NCBI RefSeq assembly: GCF_004348995.1
Contig: NZ_SMKQ01000004.1
Span: 1 to 64,000, forward strand
Source of the DNA: Nonomuraea terrae
Lineage (GTDB): Bacteria > Actinomycetota > Actinomycetes > Streptosporangiales > Streptosporangiaceae
DNA: 64,000 nt
Direction: 5' to 3'
Part shown: positions 40,196 through 50,947 of the stretch, one piece after another
How the letters are laid out: the number at the start of each line of letters is the position of its first letter
Numbering within the stretch: position 1 is the stretch's first letter
Made by a program: the position numbers and the translations under genes
The notes under the pieces: generated by a model
The model's database searches: none
Told to the model about the DNA's origin: nothing
The model's input: only the letters and a program-made list of their open reading frames with translations

Positions 40196-40861
40196 ATGAG
40201 GGTGCTGCGCCCGGCCCGGCAGGAGACGTACGAGCGGGTGTTCTCCACCGTCTACGTCGGCCTCATGACGAACGTGCTGCTCGCCGTCGCGTGCGCGCCG
40301 CTGCTGGCGGCGCTGGCGATGGTGCGCGACCCGCTCGCTTCGTGGCCGTTCTTCGCCGTGTTGTCGCTGGTGTGCGCGCCGGCGCTGGCCGGGGCGTTCG
40401 GCTGCTTCGCGGCGCTCGGCGCGGGCTCCACGGACGTGCTGCGCGCGTTCTGGGGCGGCTACCGGCGGGCCGCGGGACGGTCGCTGCTGATCTGGGCGGC
40501 CGGCGTCGCGGCGGTGACCGTGCTGGTCCTGGACGCGGCCGTGCTGTGGCCGACGGCCTGGGGGCCGGCGCTGGTGCCGTTCTTCTGCACGGCCGCCGGG
40601 CTGGTGGTGGCGGTGGCGTTCGCGCTGCTCACGCTCGCCGCCGAGACGTCCGTACGCCTGCGCGCCCTGGTGCGGCCGTGCCTGTACCTGGTGGCCAGGC
40701 GGTGGTACCTGGCCGTGGCCGACGTCGTGGTGCTCGGTCTCGCGGTGGCCGCCGTCCTGACCCGGCCGGTGCTCGGCGTGCTCGTGCTCTGCTCGCCGCT
40801 GCTCTACGCCGCCTGGGCCACCACCCGGTACGTCGTCGCGCCGCTGCTCCGGAATCGGTGA
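40196..40861 (+). CDS. YesL-like (DUF624) membrane protein
   Basis: A 221-residue protein with five or six hydrophobic segments. The N-terminal FSTVYVGLMTNVLLAVACAP and the FWGGYRR segment between helices are those of the YesL/DUF624 family, which accompanies rhamnogalacturonan and oligosaccharide ABC importers (yesLMNOPQ of Bacillus subtilis). Its role in transport is not established. It ends the operon, and its stop codon lies inside the operator-like element at 40856-40870. Confidence 0.85.
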   Translation: MRVLRPARQETYERVFSTVYVGLMTNVLLAVACAPLLAALAMVRDPLASWPFFAVLSLVCAPALAGAFGCFAALGAGSTDVLRAFWGGYRRAAGRSLLIWAAGVAAVTVLVLDAAVLWPTAWGPALVPFFCTAAGLVVAVAFALLTLAAETSVRLRALVRPCLYLVARRWYLAVADVVVLGLAVAAVLTRPVLGVLVLCSPLLYAAWATTRYVVAPLLRNR

Positions 40862-40870
40862 AATCACCGG
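40856..40870. promoter_or_regulatory. Operator-like element shared with the cutinase gene, copy 1
   Basis: CGGTGAAATCACCGG (reverse complement CCGGTGATTTCACCG) contains the inverted repeat CGGTGA-AA-TCACCG. It is centred 59 bp upstream of the LAL regulator start. A copy differing in one base stands at 43684-43698 before the cutinase gene. A TAACAC hexamer (40908-40913) close to the GTG start suggests a very short or absent leader on the regulator mRNA. Confidence 0.6.
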
Positions 40871-40921
40871 CTTCACAAGGGGCCCTTTCAGTCATGACAT
40901 CGGCGGGTAACACTGGACGGC

Positions 40922-43675
40922 GTGTCCCCTGTCGATCGCGTACCCGTGCTGCGCGGCCGCGGCGAGGAGGAGCGCGCCCTGCGGCGCCTGCTCGACGGCG
41001 CCACGACCGGCTCCGGCGGTGCTCTGGTGCTGGCGGGCCCGCCCGGCATGGGGAAGACGGCCCTGCTCGACCTGGCCGCCGCCCACGCCTCACCCGGTTT
41101 CCGCGTCCTGCGGGTGTCGGGCGTGGAGCCGGAGTCGCGACTGCGGTACTCGGGGCTGCACGCCCTGCTGCACCCGATCGCGGCGGCCGCACGGCTGCCC
41201 GACGCGCAGGCCGGCGCCCTTGCCGCCGCGCTGGAGTCCGGCGCCGCCGGCGGTGGGCTGGCGCTGCCCGCCGCCGTGCTCGGCCTGTTGTCGGCGGTGG
41301 CCGCCGAACGGCCGGTCCTGGCCTGCGTCGACGACGCCGACCTGCTCGATCCGGCCAGCCGCGAGGTGCTGTCGTTCGCGGCCCGGCGGCTGTCGGGCGC
41401 GCCGGTGGTGCTGCTGTTCGCGGCCCGGTCGCCCGGCCGTGACCTGGCGGGGCTGCCGGTCCGCGTGCTGGAGGGGCTGGACGCGGCGGCCGTCCGTGAG
41501 GTGGCCGGCGACCTCGCGCCCGGCAAGGTCGCCGAGGACCTGCTGGCGGCGGTGGACCAGATCGCCCGCGGCAACCCCCTCGCGCTGGCCGAGCTGATCG
41601 GCGCGCTCACCCCTGACCAGCTGGCCGGCCTGGCCGCCCCGCCCGTCGCGCCGCCCAGGGACGGCCGGCTGTGGCGGGCGCACGCCGACCGCCTGGCCGC
41701 GTTACCCGCGCGGGCCCGGCGGCTCCTGCTGCTCGTCGCCGCCGACCCCGGCGTGGAGGCCGAGACCCTGATCCGCGCGGCCCGCCCGGCCTGCGCCCTC
41801 GCCGCCCTGGAGCCGGCCGAACACGCCGGCCTGCTGCGCTGCGCCGACGACCGCTACGACTTCCCCGACCCGGCCGTACGCGCCGTCGCCTACCACAGCG
41901 CCTCCCTCCTCCACCGCCGTCAGGCCCACCGCCTGCTCGCCCACCTCCTGGAGAGCCGAGGTCGCGACGGGCGAACAGGGCGGCGGTTGCGGTGGGCGTG
42001 GCATCGGGCCTGGGCGCGCGACGGAGACCCCGCGCGGCTGGCCGGCGAGCTGGCCGAGGCGGCGCTCGGGGCGCGGCAGGCGGGTGGCCATCCGGAGCCG
42101 TACCTGGCGTTGGCGAAGGCCGCCGAGTTGACGCCGCACGACGACCCGGCCAAGGCCGAGCGGCTGGCCGCCGCCGCGCGGCACGCGTGGGTGGCGGGCC
42201 GGCCGCAGGCGGCCCGTTCGCTGCTGGCCGGGCTGCGTTCGCTGACCACCGCGCCCGACGGGCTGCGCGGCCGGGTCCAGCTCCTGCACGGCAGCCTGGA
42301 ACTGCTCGGCGGCGAGACCCGCAGCGCCCGCGAGGAGCTGCTGTCGGCCGCGGCCTGGCTGCTGGAAAGTCACCGCATGCTGGGCGTACGCGCGCTCGTC
42401 CGGGCCGCCGACGCCAGCTACCGCGCCGGTGACAACCGGGCGTTCCTCGCCATCGCCCGGCAGGCCGCGGCGCTGCGCCGCCCCGACGAGACGGTGGCGA
42501 CGCAGCTGATGTTCGAGTACCTGGCCGGGATGGCCTTCACCTTCAGCGGCTCCCACCGGGAGGCGGCCGGCCCGCTGCGCCGGGTCGTCGAGCTGGCCGG
42601 CAGCATACGCGACCCCGCCGTGCTGGTGTGGGCGTGCGTGGCCAGCATGCTGCTCGGCGAGGACGACACCGCCCACCGGCTGTCGGCCCGCGCCGTCGAG
42701 GCCGCCCGCCTGCGCGGCGCCGCCTCCGCCGTGCCGCAGCTGCTGGAGTACACGATCTACCCGGAGATCTGGATGGGCCGCTACCCGTCCGTGGCGGCGA
42801 CCGCGGCCCAGGGCCTGAGCCTGGCCAGGGAGACCGGCCAGCTCAACACGGCGGCCCAGCACCTGGCCTGGCTGGCGATCACCGCGGCCGTCGAGGGCGA
42901 CCAGGAGACGTGCCGCATCCGCGCCGACGCCGCCATCGACCTGGCCGAGGCCCACGGCCTCGGCGTCGCGGGAGCGGTCGCCACCTGGGCGCTGTCCTAT
43001 CTCGACCTGGCCGCCGGACGTCCCGCCGACGCCGCCAACCGGTTGCGCGCCGAGCGGCGTACCAGCAGTCACGTGGTCATCCGGGTCATGTCGACGCCGC
43101 ACTTCATCGAGGCGTGCGCGCGTACGGGCGACCGGGTGCGGGCGGCGTCGGCGCTCCGGGTGCTCGAACGCTGGGTGGGCAGCACCAGCAGCCCCGGCCT
43201 GCGCGCGCTGGTGGCCCGCTGCCGGGCGCTGCTGGCCCCGCCGGGGGAGGCGGAGGAGCTGTTCCAGGAGGCGCTCGACCTGCACGGGCAGGCCGCGTAC
43301 GAGTTCGAGGCGGCCCGCACCCGCCTGCTCTACGGCAGTGCCCTGCGCCGCGAGCGCCGCCCCGGCGCGGCGAGGACTCACCTGCACGCCGCCCTGGAGA
43401 CCTTCGAGCGGTACGGCGCCCGCCTGTGGACCGAGCAGGCCAGGGCCGAGCTGCGCGCCTCCGGCGAGCCGGTCCGCCCTGCGCCGGAGGCGGCCGCCGG
43501 GGAGCTCACGGCGCAGCAGCTGCAGATCGCCCGCATGGTCGCCGAGGGCGCCACCAACAAGGAGGTGGCCGAGCAGCTCTTCCTGAGCCGCCGCACGGTC
43601 GAGCACCACCTGAGGAACGTCTTCAGCCGCCTCGGCATCCGCTCCCGCGTCGAACTGGTACGCCTCATGTCCTGA
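40922..43675 (+). CDS. LuxR-family regulator with AAA ATPase domain (LAL type)
   Basis: A 917-residue large ATP-binding LuxR regulator. Residues 8-200 are the P-loop domain: Walker [12 protein letters not shown] (about 38-48) and Walker [14 protein letters not shown]. Residues 350-840 are helical, TPR-like repeats. Residues 855-915 are the LuxR DNA-binding domain ([20 protein letters not shown], recognition helix [17 protein letters not shown]). Such regulators (MalT-like) activate carbohydrate or secondary-metabolism genes when ATP and an inducer bind. GTG start at 40922 with only a weak GGA upstream. The same 15-bp element precedes it and the cutinase gene, so it probably controls both, including itself. 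Confidence 0.93.
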
Positions 43676-43683
43676 CCGCGAGA

Positions 43684-43698
43684 CCGGTGATTTCGCCG
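43684..43698. promoter_or_regulatory. Operator-like element shared with the LAL gene, copy 2
   Basis: CCGGTGATTTCGCCG matches the reverse complement of 40856-40870 at 14 of 15 positions. It is centred 83 bp upstream of the cutinase start, directly after the LAL gene. Conservation at two promoters only 2.8 kb apart suggests binding by the LAL regulator encoded between them. Confidence 0.6.
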
Positions 43699-43773
43699 AT
43701 GCACGGCCGGCCGCGCCTTCCAACAATGGCGGCAGACAGCAGTCACCCCCCGACGAGCAGGGAGTATGACGAC

Positions 43774-44670
43774 GTGCAGCTCACCCCCCGAACCGGCGCG
43801 CGAACGTTCACCAGGCTCCTGACCGGGCTCCTCACCGGTCTCGCCCTCACCGCCGGCGCCCTGGCCGCCCCCGCCCAGGCCCACGCCGCGAGTCCGTACG
43901 AGCGCGGCCCCGACCCCACCGACGCCCTCCTGGAGGCGAGCCGCGGCCCGTTCTCGGTCGCGACGCAGAGCGTCTCCTCGCTGGTGCTCGGCTTCGGCGG
44001 CGGCGAGATCTACTACCCGACCGACACCAGCCAGGGCACGTTCGGCGCCATCGCCATCTCACCCGGGTACACGGCCAGGTGGTCCAGCCTCGACTGGCTC
44101 GGCCCGAGGATCGCCTCGCACGGCTTCGTCGTGATCGGCATCGAGACCAACACGCTCTACGACCAGCCCGCGAGCCGGGGCCGGCAGTTGCTCGCGGCTC
44201 TCGACTACCTGGTCGAGGACAGCTCGCTCACCATCCGCAGCCGCATCGACCCGGACCGGCTCGCGGTGGCCGGGCACTCGATGGGCGGCGGCGGCTCGCT
44301 GGAGGCGGCCGACGACCGGCCGTCGCTGCAGGCGGCCGTGCCGATCGCGCCCTGGAACTCCGACAAGTCGTGGCCGGCCGTCCAGGTGCCCACGATGATC
44401 ACCGGTGGTGAGAGCGACAGCATCGCCCCGGTCTCCACCCACGCGCAGCTCTTCTACGAGAGCATCCCGTCGTCGGCCGAGAAGGCGTACCTGGAGCTGA
44501 ACGGCGCCAGCCACTTCTTCCCGCAGACCACCAACACCACCATGGCCAAGTCGATGGTGGCCTGGCTCAAGCGGTTCGTGGACGACGACACCCGTTACGA
44601 GCAGTTCCTCTGCCCGCCGCCCGGCGGGCTCGCGATCGAGGAGTACCGCCACACCTGCCCCAGCTCCTGA
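43774..44670 (+). CDS. Secreted cutinase / polyester hydrolase (PET-hydrolase type)
   Basis: A 298-residue serine hydrolase of the actinobacterial cutinase group that includes Thermobifida Cut1/Cut2 and the leaf-compost cutinase; such enzymes cleave cutin-like polyesters and often poly(ethylene terephthalate). Residues 1-38 are a signal peptide ending APAQAHAA; the mature start [16 protein letters not shown] is diagnostic. Catalytic triad: Ser169 in GHSMGGGG, Asp215 in ESDSIAP, His247 in GASHFF. Tyr99 (SPGYT) supplies the oxyanion hole, Trp194 (APWN) the aromatic clamp, and Cys280-Cys295 the C-terminal disulfide. GTG at 43774 has GGGAG 9 nt upstream; longer frames are shadows over the LAL gene. 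Length and all key residues are intact. Whether it acts on PET is not shown by sequence. Confidence 0.93.
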
Positions 44671-46934: not shown

Positions 46935-47396
46935 TCAGCGCGGCAGCGGCGGGACGGGTGTCTCGCGGGTCCACGACCCGAGCACGAGGTGCGTCTTGGT
47001 GCCGGTCACGTCGCCGGCCCGGCGCAGCCGGTCGATCACCTGCTGGAGGTGGCCGAGGTCGCGCACCCGTACGTGGATGAGCGCGTCCGGGTCTCCGGCG
47101 ATCGTGAACACCGCCTGCACCTCGGGCACGTCGGTGGCGGTGCGGACGATCTCGCTGACCGGCGTCGTGCCGGGGTATCTGAGCTCGGTGAACGCCTCGA
47201 TGCCCCACCCGAGCTTGGCGTAGTCGATCTGCACGCTGAACCCGGTGATCACGCCGATCTCGCGCAGCCGGTCCACACGCCGCTTGACCGCCGCCACCGA
47301 CAGCCCGATCTGCTCGGCCATCTCGGAGAACGTCCTGCGTCCGTCCTCGCGCAGCAGTCTTAACACCTTGTGATCGATCTCGTCCACGTCAGGCAC
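46935..47396 (-). CDS. Lrp/AsnC-family regulator
   Basis: A 153-residue feast/famine regulator. Residues 4-60 form the winged helix (DEIDHKVLRLLREDGRRTFS, IGLSVAAVKRRVDRLREIG); residues 70-145 are the RAM ligand-binding domain (GIEAFTELRYPGTTPVSEIV, IAGDPDALIHVRVRDLGHLQ). The GTG at 47396 is preferred over in-frame alternatives further upstream by spacing to GGGGG. It diverges from the indolepyruvate ferredoxin oxidoreductase gene across 173 bp and very probably regulates it in response to an amino acid. Confidence 0.92.
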   Translation of the reverse strand: MPDVDEIDHKVLRLLREDGRRTFSEMAEQIGLSVAAVKRRVDRLREIGVITGFSVQIDYAKLGWGIEAFTELRYPGTTPVSEIVRTATDVPEVQAVFTIAGDPDALIHVRVRDLGHLQQVIDRLRRAGDVTGTKTHLVLGSWTRETPVPPLPR

Positions 47397-47569
47397 GGAG
47401 AACGCCCCCTTCAGGCGCAAATAACATCAGCCACGAAGCCCGCGAACCCATATAGTTTGCGTCTTCCGCCTGCTTTCTCGTCTAATACTTGCGCATATCG
47501 TGCCCGCGTTGCTGTGCTGGGAATCTCACGTACGAGACCAAGCACGTACGAAGCCAGGAGGTCGTGAGC

Positions 47570-50500
47570 GTGAGCGAGACTCCCGCACCTGTGTCGCTCG
47601 ACGACAAGTACACCGCGGCCGACGGCCGGGTGCTCATCTCCGGGATCCAGGCCCTGGTGCGCCTGACCCTGGAGCAGCGCCGCCTGGACGAGGAGCGCGG
47701 CCTCGACACGCGTGCCTTCGTCACCGGTTACCAGGGCTCGCCGCTGGGCGGGCTGGACCTGGAGATGGGTCGGGCCGGGCGGTTCCTTGACCAGGCGGGC
47801 GTGGTGTTCCAGCCGGGGCTGAACGAGGAGCTCGCCGCCACGGCGGTGGCCGGCACCCAGCTCCTGGAGCAGGTCCCCGGCCGGCGGCACGCCGGGGTGA
47901 CCGGCTACTGGTACGGCAAGAACCCCGGCCTCGACCGGGCCGCCGACGCCATCCGGCACGCCAACGCCTCCGGCACCTCGGCGCTCGGCGGCGCGGTGGC
48001 CTGGATCGGTGACGACCCCGGCTGCAAGTCCTCGACCCTGCCGAGCTCGTGCGAGCCGATGTGCCAGAGCCTGTCGATGCCGCTGTTCGCGCCCAGCACG
48101 GTCGCCGAGATCATCGAGTACGGCCTGCACGCGGTGGCCATGTCGCGGGCGACCGGCCTGTGGGCGGCCATGAAGATCGTCGCGGACCTGGCCGACGCCT
48201 CGGCCACCGTGGACCTCGGCCCGCCGCGCGAGGACATCCCCGTCCCCGGCGGCGTTTCGCGCGGCCCGGCGCCCGTCCTGCTCGGCGCCGCCGCCCTGGA
48301 CGCCGAGTACGACATGCTGACCAACCGGCTGGAGGCGGCGCGCGCCTACGCCCGCGCCCACGGCCTGAACCGGATCGTCTCCGGGGCCCGCAACACCGCG
48401 CTCGGCATCCTCGCCTCTGGCGTCACGTACGCGGTGGTCGAGCGGGCGCTGTCCGATCTCGGCCTGGACGAGGTGGCCAGGGACGAGCTGGGGCTGCGGC
48501 TGATCAAGATCGGCATGCCGTTCCCGCTCGCGTACGACGACCTGGCGGAGATGACCCGCGACCTGGAGCGGGTGCTGGTGGTCGAGGACAAGGTGCCGTT
48601 CCTGGAGGGCCACCTCAAGCAGGCGCTGTACGGCCGCGACCGCGTCCCCGCGGTGGTGGGCCGGGAGCTGCTGACCGCCCGGGGCACGCTCAGCGCCGAG
48701 GACGTCGCCAAGGCCGTGGCCGCCTGCGTCGGCGAGGACCGGCTGCCCCGCCCGCTCGTCAGGGCCCGGCCCGCGCGCCGCATGCTGCCGCTGGTGGCCG
48801 CGCGCACGCCGTACTTCTGCTCGGGCTGCCCGCACAACACCTCGACCCGCGCCTCCGACGGCACGCTGGTCGGCGTGGGCATCGGCTGCCACGCGATGAT
48901 CGCGCTGGACGGGCACGGGCGCGGCACCCAGGTCGGCATCACCCAGATGGGCGGCGAGGGCGCCCAGTGGATCGGGCTCACGCCGTTCACCGACGACCGG
49001 CACTTCGTGCAGAACCTCGGCGACGGCACCTTCCACCACTCCGGCTCGCTGGCGATCAGGGCGGCCGTGGCGGCCGGGGTGACGATGACGTACAAGCTGC
49101 TCTACAACGACGCCGTCGCCATGACCGGCGGGCAGCGCGCGGAGGGCCGGCTCGACGTGCCGGCGATCACCCACGAGCTGGCGGTGGAGGGCGTCAGGAA
49201 GATCGTGATCACCACGCCGGAGCCCGAGCGGTATCGGGGCGTGCGCCTGGCGCCGATCGCGTCCGTACGGCACCGCGACGACCTGCCCGAGGTCGAGAAG
49301 GAGCTGGCCGCGCTGGACGGCGTGACCGTGCTCGTGCACGACGACCGGTGCGCCGCGGAGGAACGGCGGCTGCGCAAGCGCGGCAAGCTGCCCGCGGCGG
49401 AGAAGAAGGTCCTGATCAACGAGCGGGTCTGCGAGGGTTGCGGCGACTGCGGCGAGGCGTCGACGTGCCTGTCCGTGCAGCCGGTCGAGACCGAGTACGG
49501 CCGCAAGACGCGCATCCACCAGGCCTCCTGCAACACCGACCTGAGCTGCCTGAAGGGCGACTGCCCGTCGTTCCTGCTGGTCGAGCCGGGCACCCGCGAG
49601 CCCAGGAAGGCCCCGCCGCCGCCGGCGAACCCGCCGCACCCCGACTCCAGGGTCGGCGACGAGGTGCTGATCAGGATGCCCGGCATCGGCGGCACCGGCG
49701 TGGTGACCGTCTCGCAGATCCTGCAGATGGCCGCTCACCTCGACGGCCTGCACGCCGCCGGGCTGGAGCAGACCGGGCTCGCGCAGAAGGGCGGCCCCGT
49801 GGTGAGCGACGTGCGGATCTCCAAGCAGCCGCCCGCGGGGTCGCTGCGCGCCTCGAACGGCGGCGCCGACGTGCTCATCGGGTTCGACGTGCTGGGCGCG
49901 GCGGCCGACACCACCCTGGCCGTGGCCTCGCCGGAGCGCACGGTGGCGGTGCTGAACACCTCCGTGGTGCCGACGGCCGCCATGGTGACCGGCCGCGCGC
50001 CGGTGCCGGGGCACGCGGACGCGGTCACCAGGGTCGAGTCGGTCACCCGCGAGCGGTTCTGCCTCGACGCGCACGCGCTGGCGGAGGCCCTGTTCGGCGA
50101 CCACATGCCGGCCAACCTGCTGCTGCTCGGCGCCGCGTACCAGTACGGCTGCCTGCCCGTCGGCGCCGACTCGATCGAGCAGGCCATCCGGCTCAACCGG
50201 GCCGCCGTCGAGCAGAACCTGGCCGCCTTCCGCTGGGGCCGCGCCGCCGTGGCCGACCCCGAGGCCGTGCGCAGGGCCGTGCTGCCCGCCGAGCCGCCCG
50301 AACCGTCCGGGCTGGAGGAGGTCGTGGCCACCCGGGTCGCCGACCTGACCGGCTACCAGAACGCCGCCTACGCCCGTACGTACGCCGAGGACGTGCGGCG
50401 CGTGGCCGCCCGCGCGACCGAGCGGGCGGGCGCGGAGGCCGGCACGGCGATCGCCCTCGCCTACGCCCGCGGCCTGCACAAGGTCATGGCCTACAAGGAC

Positions 50501-50947
50501 GAGTACGAGGTCGCCCGCCTGCACCTCGACCCCGTCGAGCGGGAGCGCCGGGAGCGGGAGTTCGGCCGCGACGCGCGGGTGTCGGTGCTGCTGCACCCGC
50601 CGGTGCTGCGCGCGATGGGCATGAAGCGCAAGATAGAGGTACGCCGCTCGGCCGGGGTGCTGTTCCGCGGCCTGCGCGCGGCGCGGGTGCTGCGCGGCAC
50701 GGCGCTCGACGTGTTCGGCCGGGCCGAGGTGCGCCGCGTCGAGCGCGCGCTCGTCGGCGAGTACCGCGCTCTCGTGCGCGCCGCGCTCGACCGGCTCACC
50801 CCGTACACCGCGGCGACCGTCGAGGAGATCGCCGGCCTGCCCGACGTGATCCGTGGGTACGAGGACATCAAGCTCGCCCGGGTCGCCGAGTTCCGCGACC
50901 GCGCCAAGGCCGCCCTCGGCCGCCTGACCGAGTCCACCCCTCACTAG
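47570..50947 (+). CDS. Indolepyruvate ferredoxin oxidoreductase, fused alpha-beta type
   Basis: A 1125-residue ThDP and iron-sulfur enzyme oxidising arylpyruvates (from Trp, Tyr, Phe) to aryl-acetyl-CoA with reduction of ferredoxin. The N-terminal two-thirds carry the IorA-like ThDP halves (FVTGYQGSPLGGLDLEMGRA; YFCSGCPHNTST; GVGIGCHAMIALDG; ITQMGGEGAQWIGL). Around residues 620-690 is a cysteine-rich segment (CEGCGDCGEASTC, CNTDLSCLKGDCPSF). The C-terminal third is the IorB/gamma domain (MPGIGGTGVVTVSQILQMAA). The fused form is typical of aerobic actinobacteria and proteobacteria. AGGAGG is 8 nt before the GTG at 47570; a GTG at 47564 is also possible. Followed by an acyl-CoA dehydrogenase gene after 10 nt. 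Confidence 0.92.
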   Translation: MSETPAPVSLDDKYTAADGRVLISGIQALVRLTLEQRRLDEERGLDTRAFVTGYQGSPLGGLDLEMGRAGRFLDQAGVVFQPGLNEELAATAVAGTQLLEQVPGRRHAGVTGYWYGKNPGLDRAADAIRHANASGTSALGGAVAWIGDDPGCKSSTLPSSCEPMCQSLSMPLFAPSTVAEIIEYGLHAVAMSRATGLWAAMKIVADLADASATVDLGPPREDIPVPGGVSRGPAPVLLGAAALDAEYDMLTNRLEAARAYARAHGLNRIVSGARNTALGILASGVTYAVVERALSDLGLDEVARDELGLRLIKIGMPFPLAYDDLAEMTRDLERVLVVEDKVPFLEGHLKQALYGRDRVPAVVGRELLTARGTLSAEDVAKAVAACVGEDRLPRPLVRARPARRMLPLVAARTPYFCSGCPHNTSTRASDGTLVGVGIGCHAMIALDGHGRGTQVGITQMGGEGAQWIGLTPFTDDRHFVQNLGDGTFHHSGSLAIRAAVAAGVTMTYKLLYNDAVAMTGGQRAEGRLDVPAITHELAVEGVRKIVITTPEPERYRGVRLAPIASVRHRDDLPEVEKELAALDGVTVLVHDDRCAAEERRLRKRGKLPAAEKKVLINERVCEGCGDCGEASTCLSVQPVETEYGRKTRIHQASCNTDLSCLKGDCPSFLLVEPGTREPRKAPPPPANPPHPDSRVGDEVLIRMPGIGGTGVVTVSQILQMAAHLDGLHAAGLEQTGLAQKGGPVVSDVRISKQPPAGSLRASNGGADVLIGFDVLGAAADTTLAVASPERTVAVLNTSVVPTAAMVTGRAPVPGHADAVTRVESVTRERFCLDAHALAEALFGDHMPANLLLLGAAYQYGCLPVGADSIEQAIRLNRAAVEQNLAAFRWGRAAVADPEAVRRAVLPAEPPEPSGLEEVVATRVADLTGYQNAAYARTYAEDVRRVAARATERAGAEAGTAIALAYARGLHKVMAYKDEYEVARLHLDPVERERREREFGRDARVSVLLHPPVLRAMGMKRKIEVRRSAGVLFRGLRAARVLRGTALDVFGRAEVRRVERALVGEYRALVRAALDRLTPYTAATVEEIAGLPDVIRGYEDIKLARVAEFRDRAKAALGRLTESTPH

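Follow-up and report, generated by a model that had tools for sequence, protein, structure and literature searches.

A palindromic element shared by a LAL regulator gene and a PETase-family cutinase gene in Nonomuraea terrae points to a probable LipR-type control of the cutinase promoter

MalT is a large ATP-binding regulator with a GerE helix-turn-helix (HTH), and MalT boxes are short and mostly direct repeats. LipR of Streptomyces exfoliatus and S. coelicolor is encoded beside the lipase gene lipA and is reported in a 2025 review to activate lipAR directly via conserved sequences upstream of the −35 (PMC12134079); SCO0712 is listed as a 941-aa protein without an ATP motif (PMC3282765). PimM and CfaR are reported to bind palindromes like CTVGGGAWWTCCCBAG at or above the −35 (PMC4380410, PMC9774167). 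Here we analyzed a stretch of 64,000 nucleotides from Nonomuraea terrae (the window, positions 1 to 64,000 of contig NZ_SMKQ01000004.1), in which an earlier note, made from the sequence alone, had described a 15-bp element shared by the gene of a large ATP-binding LuxR-type regulator (LAL) and a cutinase gene next to it. Judged from the genome comparisons below, it is likely that the LAL is a LipR-type factor which binds this palindromic element and activates the cutinase gene in class II geometry, and that it probably also regulates its own gene.

The window lies within contig C411 of a draft genome of 9.69 Mb in 469 contigs. The LAL gene (40922-43675, plus strand, GTG start at 40922) encodes a protein of 917 aa with the roughly 900-aa LAL architecture, that is an AAA_16 ATPase (Pfam, 1e-17) and a C-terminal GerE (LuxR) HTH (PF00196, 1.1e-17). 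It adjoins, in the order LAL then cutinase, a gene for a secreted PETase-family cutinase (43774-44670, plus strand, GTG start at 43774) of 298 aa with a signal-peptide-like N-terminus, which matches PF12740 over the full domain (2.5e-122, profile positions 2-263 of 263) and has 7ykq, 4wfi and 1jfr among its relatives in the PDB. The last of these, which we take to be the S. exfoliatus lipase, a PETase-family relative, is also the closest solved structure for the enzyme of a presumed Streptomyces locus (L347).

The minus strand at 40856-40870 reads CCGGTGATTTCACCG and the plus strand at 43684-43698 reads CCGGTGATTTCGCCG. As the earlier note had it, the two are identical at 14 of 15 positions and lie in opposite orientation, their centres being ~59 bp from the LAL GTG and ~83 bp from the cutinase GTG. 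The similarity runs on beyond 15 bp, to CCGGTGATTTC(A/G)CCGAT, and the core is a palindrome, CGGTGA-TT-TCRCCG, with a 2-bp centre and therefore looks like a dimer operator; since the core is nearly palindromic, the orientation of each element was judged from its flanks. The LAL-side element, CCGGTGATTTCACCGAT (40854-40870, minus strand, palindromic core 40856-40869), overlaps the stop of the upstream open reading frame (ORF), and where it is found in relatives it is mostly directed away from the LAL gene. The cutinase-side palindrome, CGGTGATTTCGCCG (43685-43698, plus strand), is the predicted activator site, centred at about −42.5, and the element on this side lies 8 bp past the end of the LAL gene.

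At up to three mismatches the 15-mer gives 17 matches in the window, where 5.9 (sd 2.4) are expected, and only the reported two are exact. They are also two of the five exact CGGYGAWWTCRCCG sites in the whole genome. The short core at up to one mismatch is not rare there (142 sites vs 10 for the reversed control, those listed being mostly GC-richer variants). With the extended 20-mer ACYGGTGATTTCACCGATGC at up to three mismatches three sites were found in the genome, of which the reported pair is best (one and two mismatches), and none with the reversed control. When 54 genomes of the genus, including this one, were scanned with CCGGTGATTTCACCGAT at up to one mismatch, 35 sites in 21 genomes were obtained, as compared to one for the control, and 33 of the 35 are located at the LAL or cutinase gene of this locus; of the two exceptions, one precedes the gene of a secreted Abhydrolase_10 protein (L116) and the other is within an ORF (L125). 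The earlier note had proposed to give up the shared motif if it occurred at many unrelated sites genome-wide, and neither the genome nor the genus showed such a scatter for the extended element.

In all, 120 cutinase upstream regions were scanned, and a site within three mismatches of CGGTGATTTCACCGATG was present in 81 of them, while 60 control patterns averaged 0.05. Because part of these loci had been fetched for the motif, further counts were limited to the 98 loci chosen by cutinase homology; the other 22 had mainly been fetched for the motif or the LAL. The 98 include 40 family loci (29 genera) picked by hand from 174 genomes with a match, and 34 likewise picked loci from other families, G049 included; they span related, non-independent genomes, and a weak match (L375), a set of fragments (L062) and a partial match (L063) were excluded before counting. 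The site was found in 42 of 54 loci with a LAL gene in the locus and in 17 of 44 without one (Fisher 1.5e-4), the co-occurrence being clear in other families (Fisher 6e-4). A broadened pattern, CYGGTGATNNNRCSGATG, allowing two mismatches and requiring NANNNT 20 or 21 nt downstream, was made post hoc from the variants seen; it is present in 48/54 LAL-linked and 20/44 unlinked loci (Fisher 5e-6) and in 43 of 9366 random windows. Split by relationship, the LAL-linked and unlinked counts were 20/23 vs 0/1 in the genus, 15/15 vs 18/25 in the family and 13/16 vs 2/18 in other families. The element accompanies several gene orders: LAL then cutinase in this family, cutinase then LAL in presumed Streptomyces and in G497, and divergent genes (L361, L367). 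In several genera the two genes are unlinked, and in Herbidospora both then carry the site.

Other genera and several actinobacterial families also have the palindrome, followed by ATG(C) on the gene side, ahead of their PF12740 cutinases. The GTDB species collection was scanned with YGGTGATTTCACCGATGC and 80 of the 119 matching stretches were examined. Among the matches listed, cutinase promoters were from three Glycomyces, three Micromonospora, two Microbispora, Streptomyces huasconensis and several Streptosporangiaceae; a site of Amycolatopsis acidicola lies between a LAL gene and a divergent regulator-like gene, those of Micromonospora globbae and Nocardia paucivorans have no called gene alongside, and many of the non-actinobacterial ones are inside ORFs.

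The spacing between the site and the promoter is fixed ahead of the cutinases. Of 59 sites in the geometry set, one minus-oriented site was left out and removal of near-duplicates reduced the remaining 58 to 45. All 45 have NANNNT 20-22 nt past ATG, 44 of them at 20 or 21, as compared to 5/45 and 9/45 at two control ranges of seven offsets each; in chance sites of non-actinobacterial origin, picked by hand among the YGGTGATTTCACCGATGC matches listed, NANNNT stood at 20 or 21 in 3 of 49. If NANNNT is taken as the −10, the palindrome centre falls at −42.5 or −43.5 and ATGC in the −35 region. For the window cutinase the conserved gene-side ATGC, predicted as −35 region, is at 43699-43702 and the predicted −10 hexamer AACAAT at 43722-43727 (both plus strand), with a predicted transcription start at ~43734, a placement that would fit the geometry of a class II activator. 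The two elements do stand at gene ends, and a short core at one mismatch is common in a GC-rich genome, so we considered whether the elements might be alike by chance, belong to a mobile repeat or act as transcription terminators of two genes. A terminator agrees poorly with arms only 2 bp apart and the lack of a T run, and chance or a repeat with the location of the genus sites, the conservation over the controls, the element ahead of cutinases that no LAL gene precedes and the fixed −10. We reject these explanations, which together retain hardly any probability; the match between the elements is not due to chance.

Our proposal for the cutinase gene is that the C-terminal GerE domain of the LAL, probably as a dimer, would bind CGGTGA-TT-TCRCCG at the site abutting the −35 region, and from there would activate transcription as a class II activator does. 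At the LAL gene the same palindrome is found reversed, with the predicted start ~57 bp downstream, and here autoregulation of either sign would be most likely. The predicted LAL −10, TAACACT (40908-40914, plus strand), has the start codon few nucleotides downstream, which predicts a near-leaderless transcript, and T(A/G)ACACT precedes LAL in all 14 same-genus loci listed. In these 14 loci the palindrome is kept on the LAL side; the ATGC and an outward −10 mostly are not. The distance from the palindrome to the LAL −10 is 29-41 nt in the genus (38 nt in the window) and 59-102 nt in the 12 loci listed from other genera. An outward −10 at activator spacing was seen in 7 of 18 LAL-side sites of other genera (a nineteenth, L234, not counted). 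Post hoc, with 11 hand-listed spacings and five periods tried, the LAL-side distances tend to put the palindrome on the same face of the helix (for a 10.5-bp period, Rayleigh p 0.0014), with p 0.049 at a period of 10, 0.015 at 11 and no significance at 9.5 and 11.5. The idea that both elements act alike is not supported, as the cutinase-side element sits in a fixed, activator-like promoter and the LAL-side element of the genus does not. Possibly, the LAL binds the element and represses the cutinase gene or its own gene, which would agree with a LAL-side site whose distance to the adjoining, conserved LAL promoter varies and that does not have activator spacing. However, the cutinase-side palindrome is fixed at −42.5 to −43.5, upstream of and not over the predicted −35 and −10, and LipR is described as an activator (PMC12134079); we find repression unlikely.

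A FastTree phylogeny was made of 64 LALs (reading frames above 700 aa only), comprising the window LAL, 34 cutinase- or site-linked ones, 10 from presumed Streptomyces, six unlinked intermediates and 13 paralogs. All non-paralog LALs group apart from the sampled paralogs (local support 0.994), and the window LAL falls with the LALs of the presumed Streptomyces cutinase-LAL pairs. The GerE HTH with its recognition helix is at 43505-43666 (plus strand) in the window; the helices within the group are of HHLR or YHLR type, whereas 13/13 paralogs have YHLYK-like ones. In genomes where the site is unlinked from LAL, the best LAL match elsewhere was of the HHLR type in 13/16, as compared to 6/22 without a canonical site (Fisher 0.0025). 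Of the 17 site-bearing genomes without a linked LAL this survey covered 16 (all but G220, which has a 59% LAL), and of the 27 site-less genomes 21, to which G393 was added. Five of the six HHLR-bearing genomes without a canonical site have the form HHLRG; among these five, a variant operator ending in ACGG, with a −10 of its own, was found at L155, L158 and L161 and was not seen at L152 and L160.

Variation of the operator follows the regulator to some extent, as its right-half variants run with LAL lineages. A prediction written before the data were fetched, except for G196 and G204 whose sites had already been seen, held that the residue after HHLR (N vs G/A) tracks ACCG vs ACGG. In 13 of the 16 genomes concerned and in four further genomes, cutinases are preceded by an ACGG-type operator that has a −10, and operator type thus varies by lineage; a revised correlate, Arg after the following F, goes with ACGG in 13/15 (post hoc). 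A Nonomuraea lineage (L118, L119, L120, L054, L056) has TIDHHL/TVDHHL helices and a shifted operator, ACCGGYGATTCACSCGATGC.

Several observations weigh against the LAL as the factor that acts at these sites. The helix prediction failed (9 genomes fit, G115, G184, G160, G204, G081 and G162 contradict it, and G093 is not covered; n=16), and in G085 the LAL next to a canonical site is of the HHLRG form. Of the 16 genomes with unlinked sites, the exceptions were two with GHLRN helices and one in which the best match is a paralog and the LAL is in fragments on separate contigs. Within the genus (Fisher 0.21) or the family (0.16) alone, sites and linked LALs do not coincide significantly, and the combined element is missing in 6/54 LAL-linked loci (L118-L120, L349, L353, L367). 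For the genus we reject a −10 that stands in class II spacing to the LAL-side element, as it was found inward in 0/14 and outward in 2/14 loci. The failed prediction and the site of G085, together with the sites that have no LAL nearby in 20/44 loci, would also fit a different transcription factor that binds the element and controls LAL and cutinase as a shared lipid/polyester regulon, with the LAL as a target. This explanation has to account for a LAL of this type in most of the site-bearing genomes that lack a linked one, for the reshuffled gene order around the same LAL-cutinase pair and for half-site variants that run with LAL lineages, and binding of this kind of palindrome by GerE-type factors is reported for PimM and CfaR; we regard it as quite unlikely. 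Taken together, comparative genomics strongly supports the regulatory circuit proposed in the earlier note, in which the LAL acts on the cutinase gene via the shared element. The note's depiction of the LAL as a MalT-like, ATP-dependent polyester sensor is unsupported. The P-loop GPPGMGKT (Walker A, 41036-41059, plus strand) is present in the window LAL, in 6/6 intermediates and in 13/13 paralogs; the pattern is found in 22/34 and missing in 12/34 linked or site-bearing relatives, and all ten presumed Streptomyces LALs of the tree (among L342-L353 and L371) lack it. An ATPase switch may thus have been lost repeatedly.

The operator is not restricted to cutinase and LAL genes. Of 297 genomes of the family, 55 carry exact YGGTGATTTCACCGATG, with 63 sites in all and none for the reversed control. 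Judged by coordinates and neighbouring genes, 26 of these sites belong to PETase-family cutinases and 22 adjoin a LAL gene, with four at Abhydrolase_10 proteins, four at class 2 lipases, one at a PF01083 cutinase and six others, namely one inside a P450-like ORF, L208, L215 and three unassigned. For two of the LAL-side sites (G242, G272) the assignment is based solely on position or analogy; the nine other-hydrolase sites were assigned by family scan (L116, L198, L199, L200, L207, L213) or by sequence likeness (L209, L211, L212), and eight of them have NANNNT at 20-21, the PF01083 site being the one without. In four loci a gene for a LivG-like ATP-binding cassette (ABC) protein is divergent across the LAL-side site (L201, Herbidospora; L149 and L206, Planobispora; L154, Planomonospora), and all four have a −10 on that side, as does L202, which shows just a truncated ORF of that kind. 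In 13 Nonomuraea loci (including L047-L052, L113-L115, L122 and L124) a LivG-like gene, which shares ~47% identity with the L206 one, lies co-directionally upstream of LAL; around the window LAL none was found. The LivG-like ABC protein is a candidate importer of hydrolysis products. At L208 (G276) and L215 (G256) exact sites are kept in genomes without a cutinase match, and their neighbour genes flank the locus in relatives. At L214 (5064-5929) an exact site is followed by the hexamer TAGCGT at 21 nt and by a 262-aa protein without a Pfam match, a possible regulon member.

These targets allow a tentative wider picture, possible though somewhat less probable than its opposite, of a polyester/lipid scavenging regulon across several actinobacterial families. 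One LAL group would recognize an operator of its own in front of the genes for PETase-family cutinases, for further esterases that are secreted (Abhydrolase_10, class 2 lipases, the PF01083 cutinase) and, in some genera, for a Liv-type ABC importer; the regulator would perhaps sense an imported hydrolysis product, and the operator would co-evolve with the recognition helix. Actinobacterial polyethylene terephthalate hydrolases and cutinases are heavily engineered, and we found little on how they are switched on. A candidate operator with its promoter geometry and cognate regulator opens the way to direct inducer tests and offers a handle for expression strains, and the operator can serve as a marker for further polyester-active enzymes, encoded by the genes behind it.

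Some features of the window concern the surroundings of these genes. The LAL gene contains one TTA codon (Leu261, 41702-41704, plus strand) whose position is not conserved in relatives; with 55 TTA among 94420 background codons, this is a weak signal regarding bldA dependence. The ORF upstream of LAL (40196-40861) gave no match in a Pfam scan, and sugar-type ABC permease ORFs, recognized by eye, lie upstream of the LAL gene. At 46935-50947 a small AsnC/Lrp-like regulator gene is divergent from an ORF of 1152 aa that resembles, by eye, an indolepyruvate ferredoxin oxidoreductase.

Compared with known systems, the window LAL shares with MalT the form of a large ATP-binding GerE regulator, and differs in that its site is a palindrome where MalT boxes are mostly direct repeats. 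PimM and CfaR resemble it in the GerE-type HTH and in an A/T-centred palindrome that is reported to lie at the −35 or immediately before it; the window LAL has no PAS domain among its Pfam matches, its half-site is GGTGA and not GGGA, and the PAS-LuxR proteins are small (152-243 aa). The LipR-lipA system is closest, as it too has a large regulator of the LuxR type, the gene of an extracellular lipase next to it and, by reported position, a cis-element just upstream of the (here predicted) −35. The presumed Streptomyces loci, with the order cutinase then LAL, have a LAL that groups with the window LAL, and most of them show the element in a variant form (SCO0712 itself is outside the tree). In contrast to lipA and lipR, the LAL gene of the window precedes the cutinase gene and has an upstream element of its own, and its P-loop is intact, whereas SCO0712 is listed without an ATP motif (PMC3282765). 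The remark in the earlier note that regulation of this enzyme group is little described is not supported, as LipR/lipA of Streptomyces is a direct precedent. No publication on this operator was found in the literature searched, which did not cover subscription papers; the LipR papers of 1997 and 1999 may describe part of it. With the precedents of LipR and of PimM/CfaR the mechanism would be of a known kind, and what is new, as far as our searches show, is the explicit operator, the promoter geometry, the spread of this operator and the further targets.

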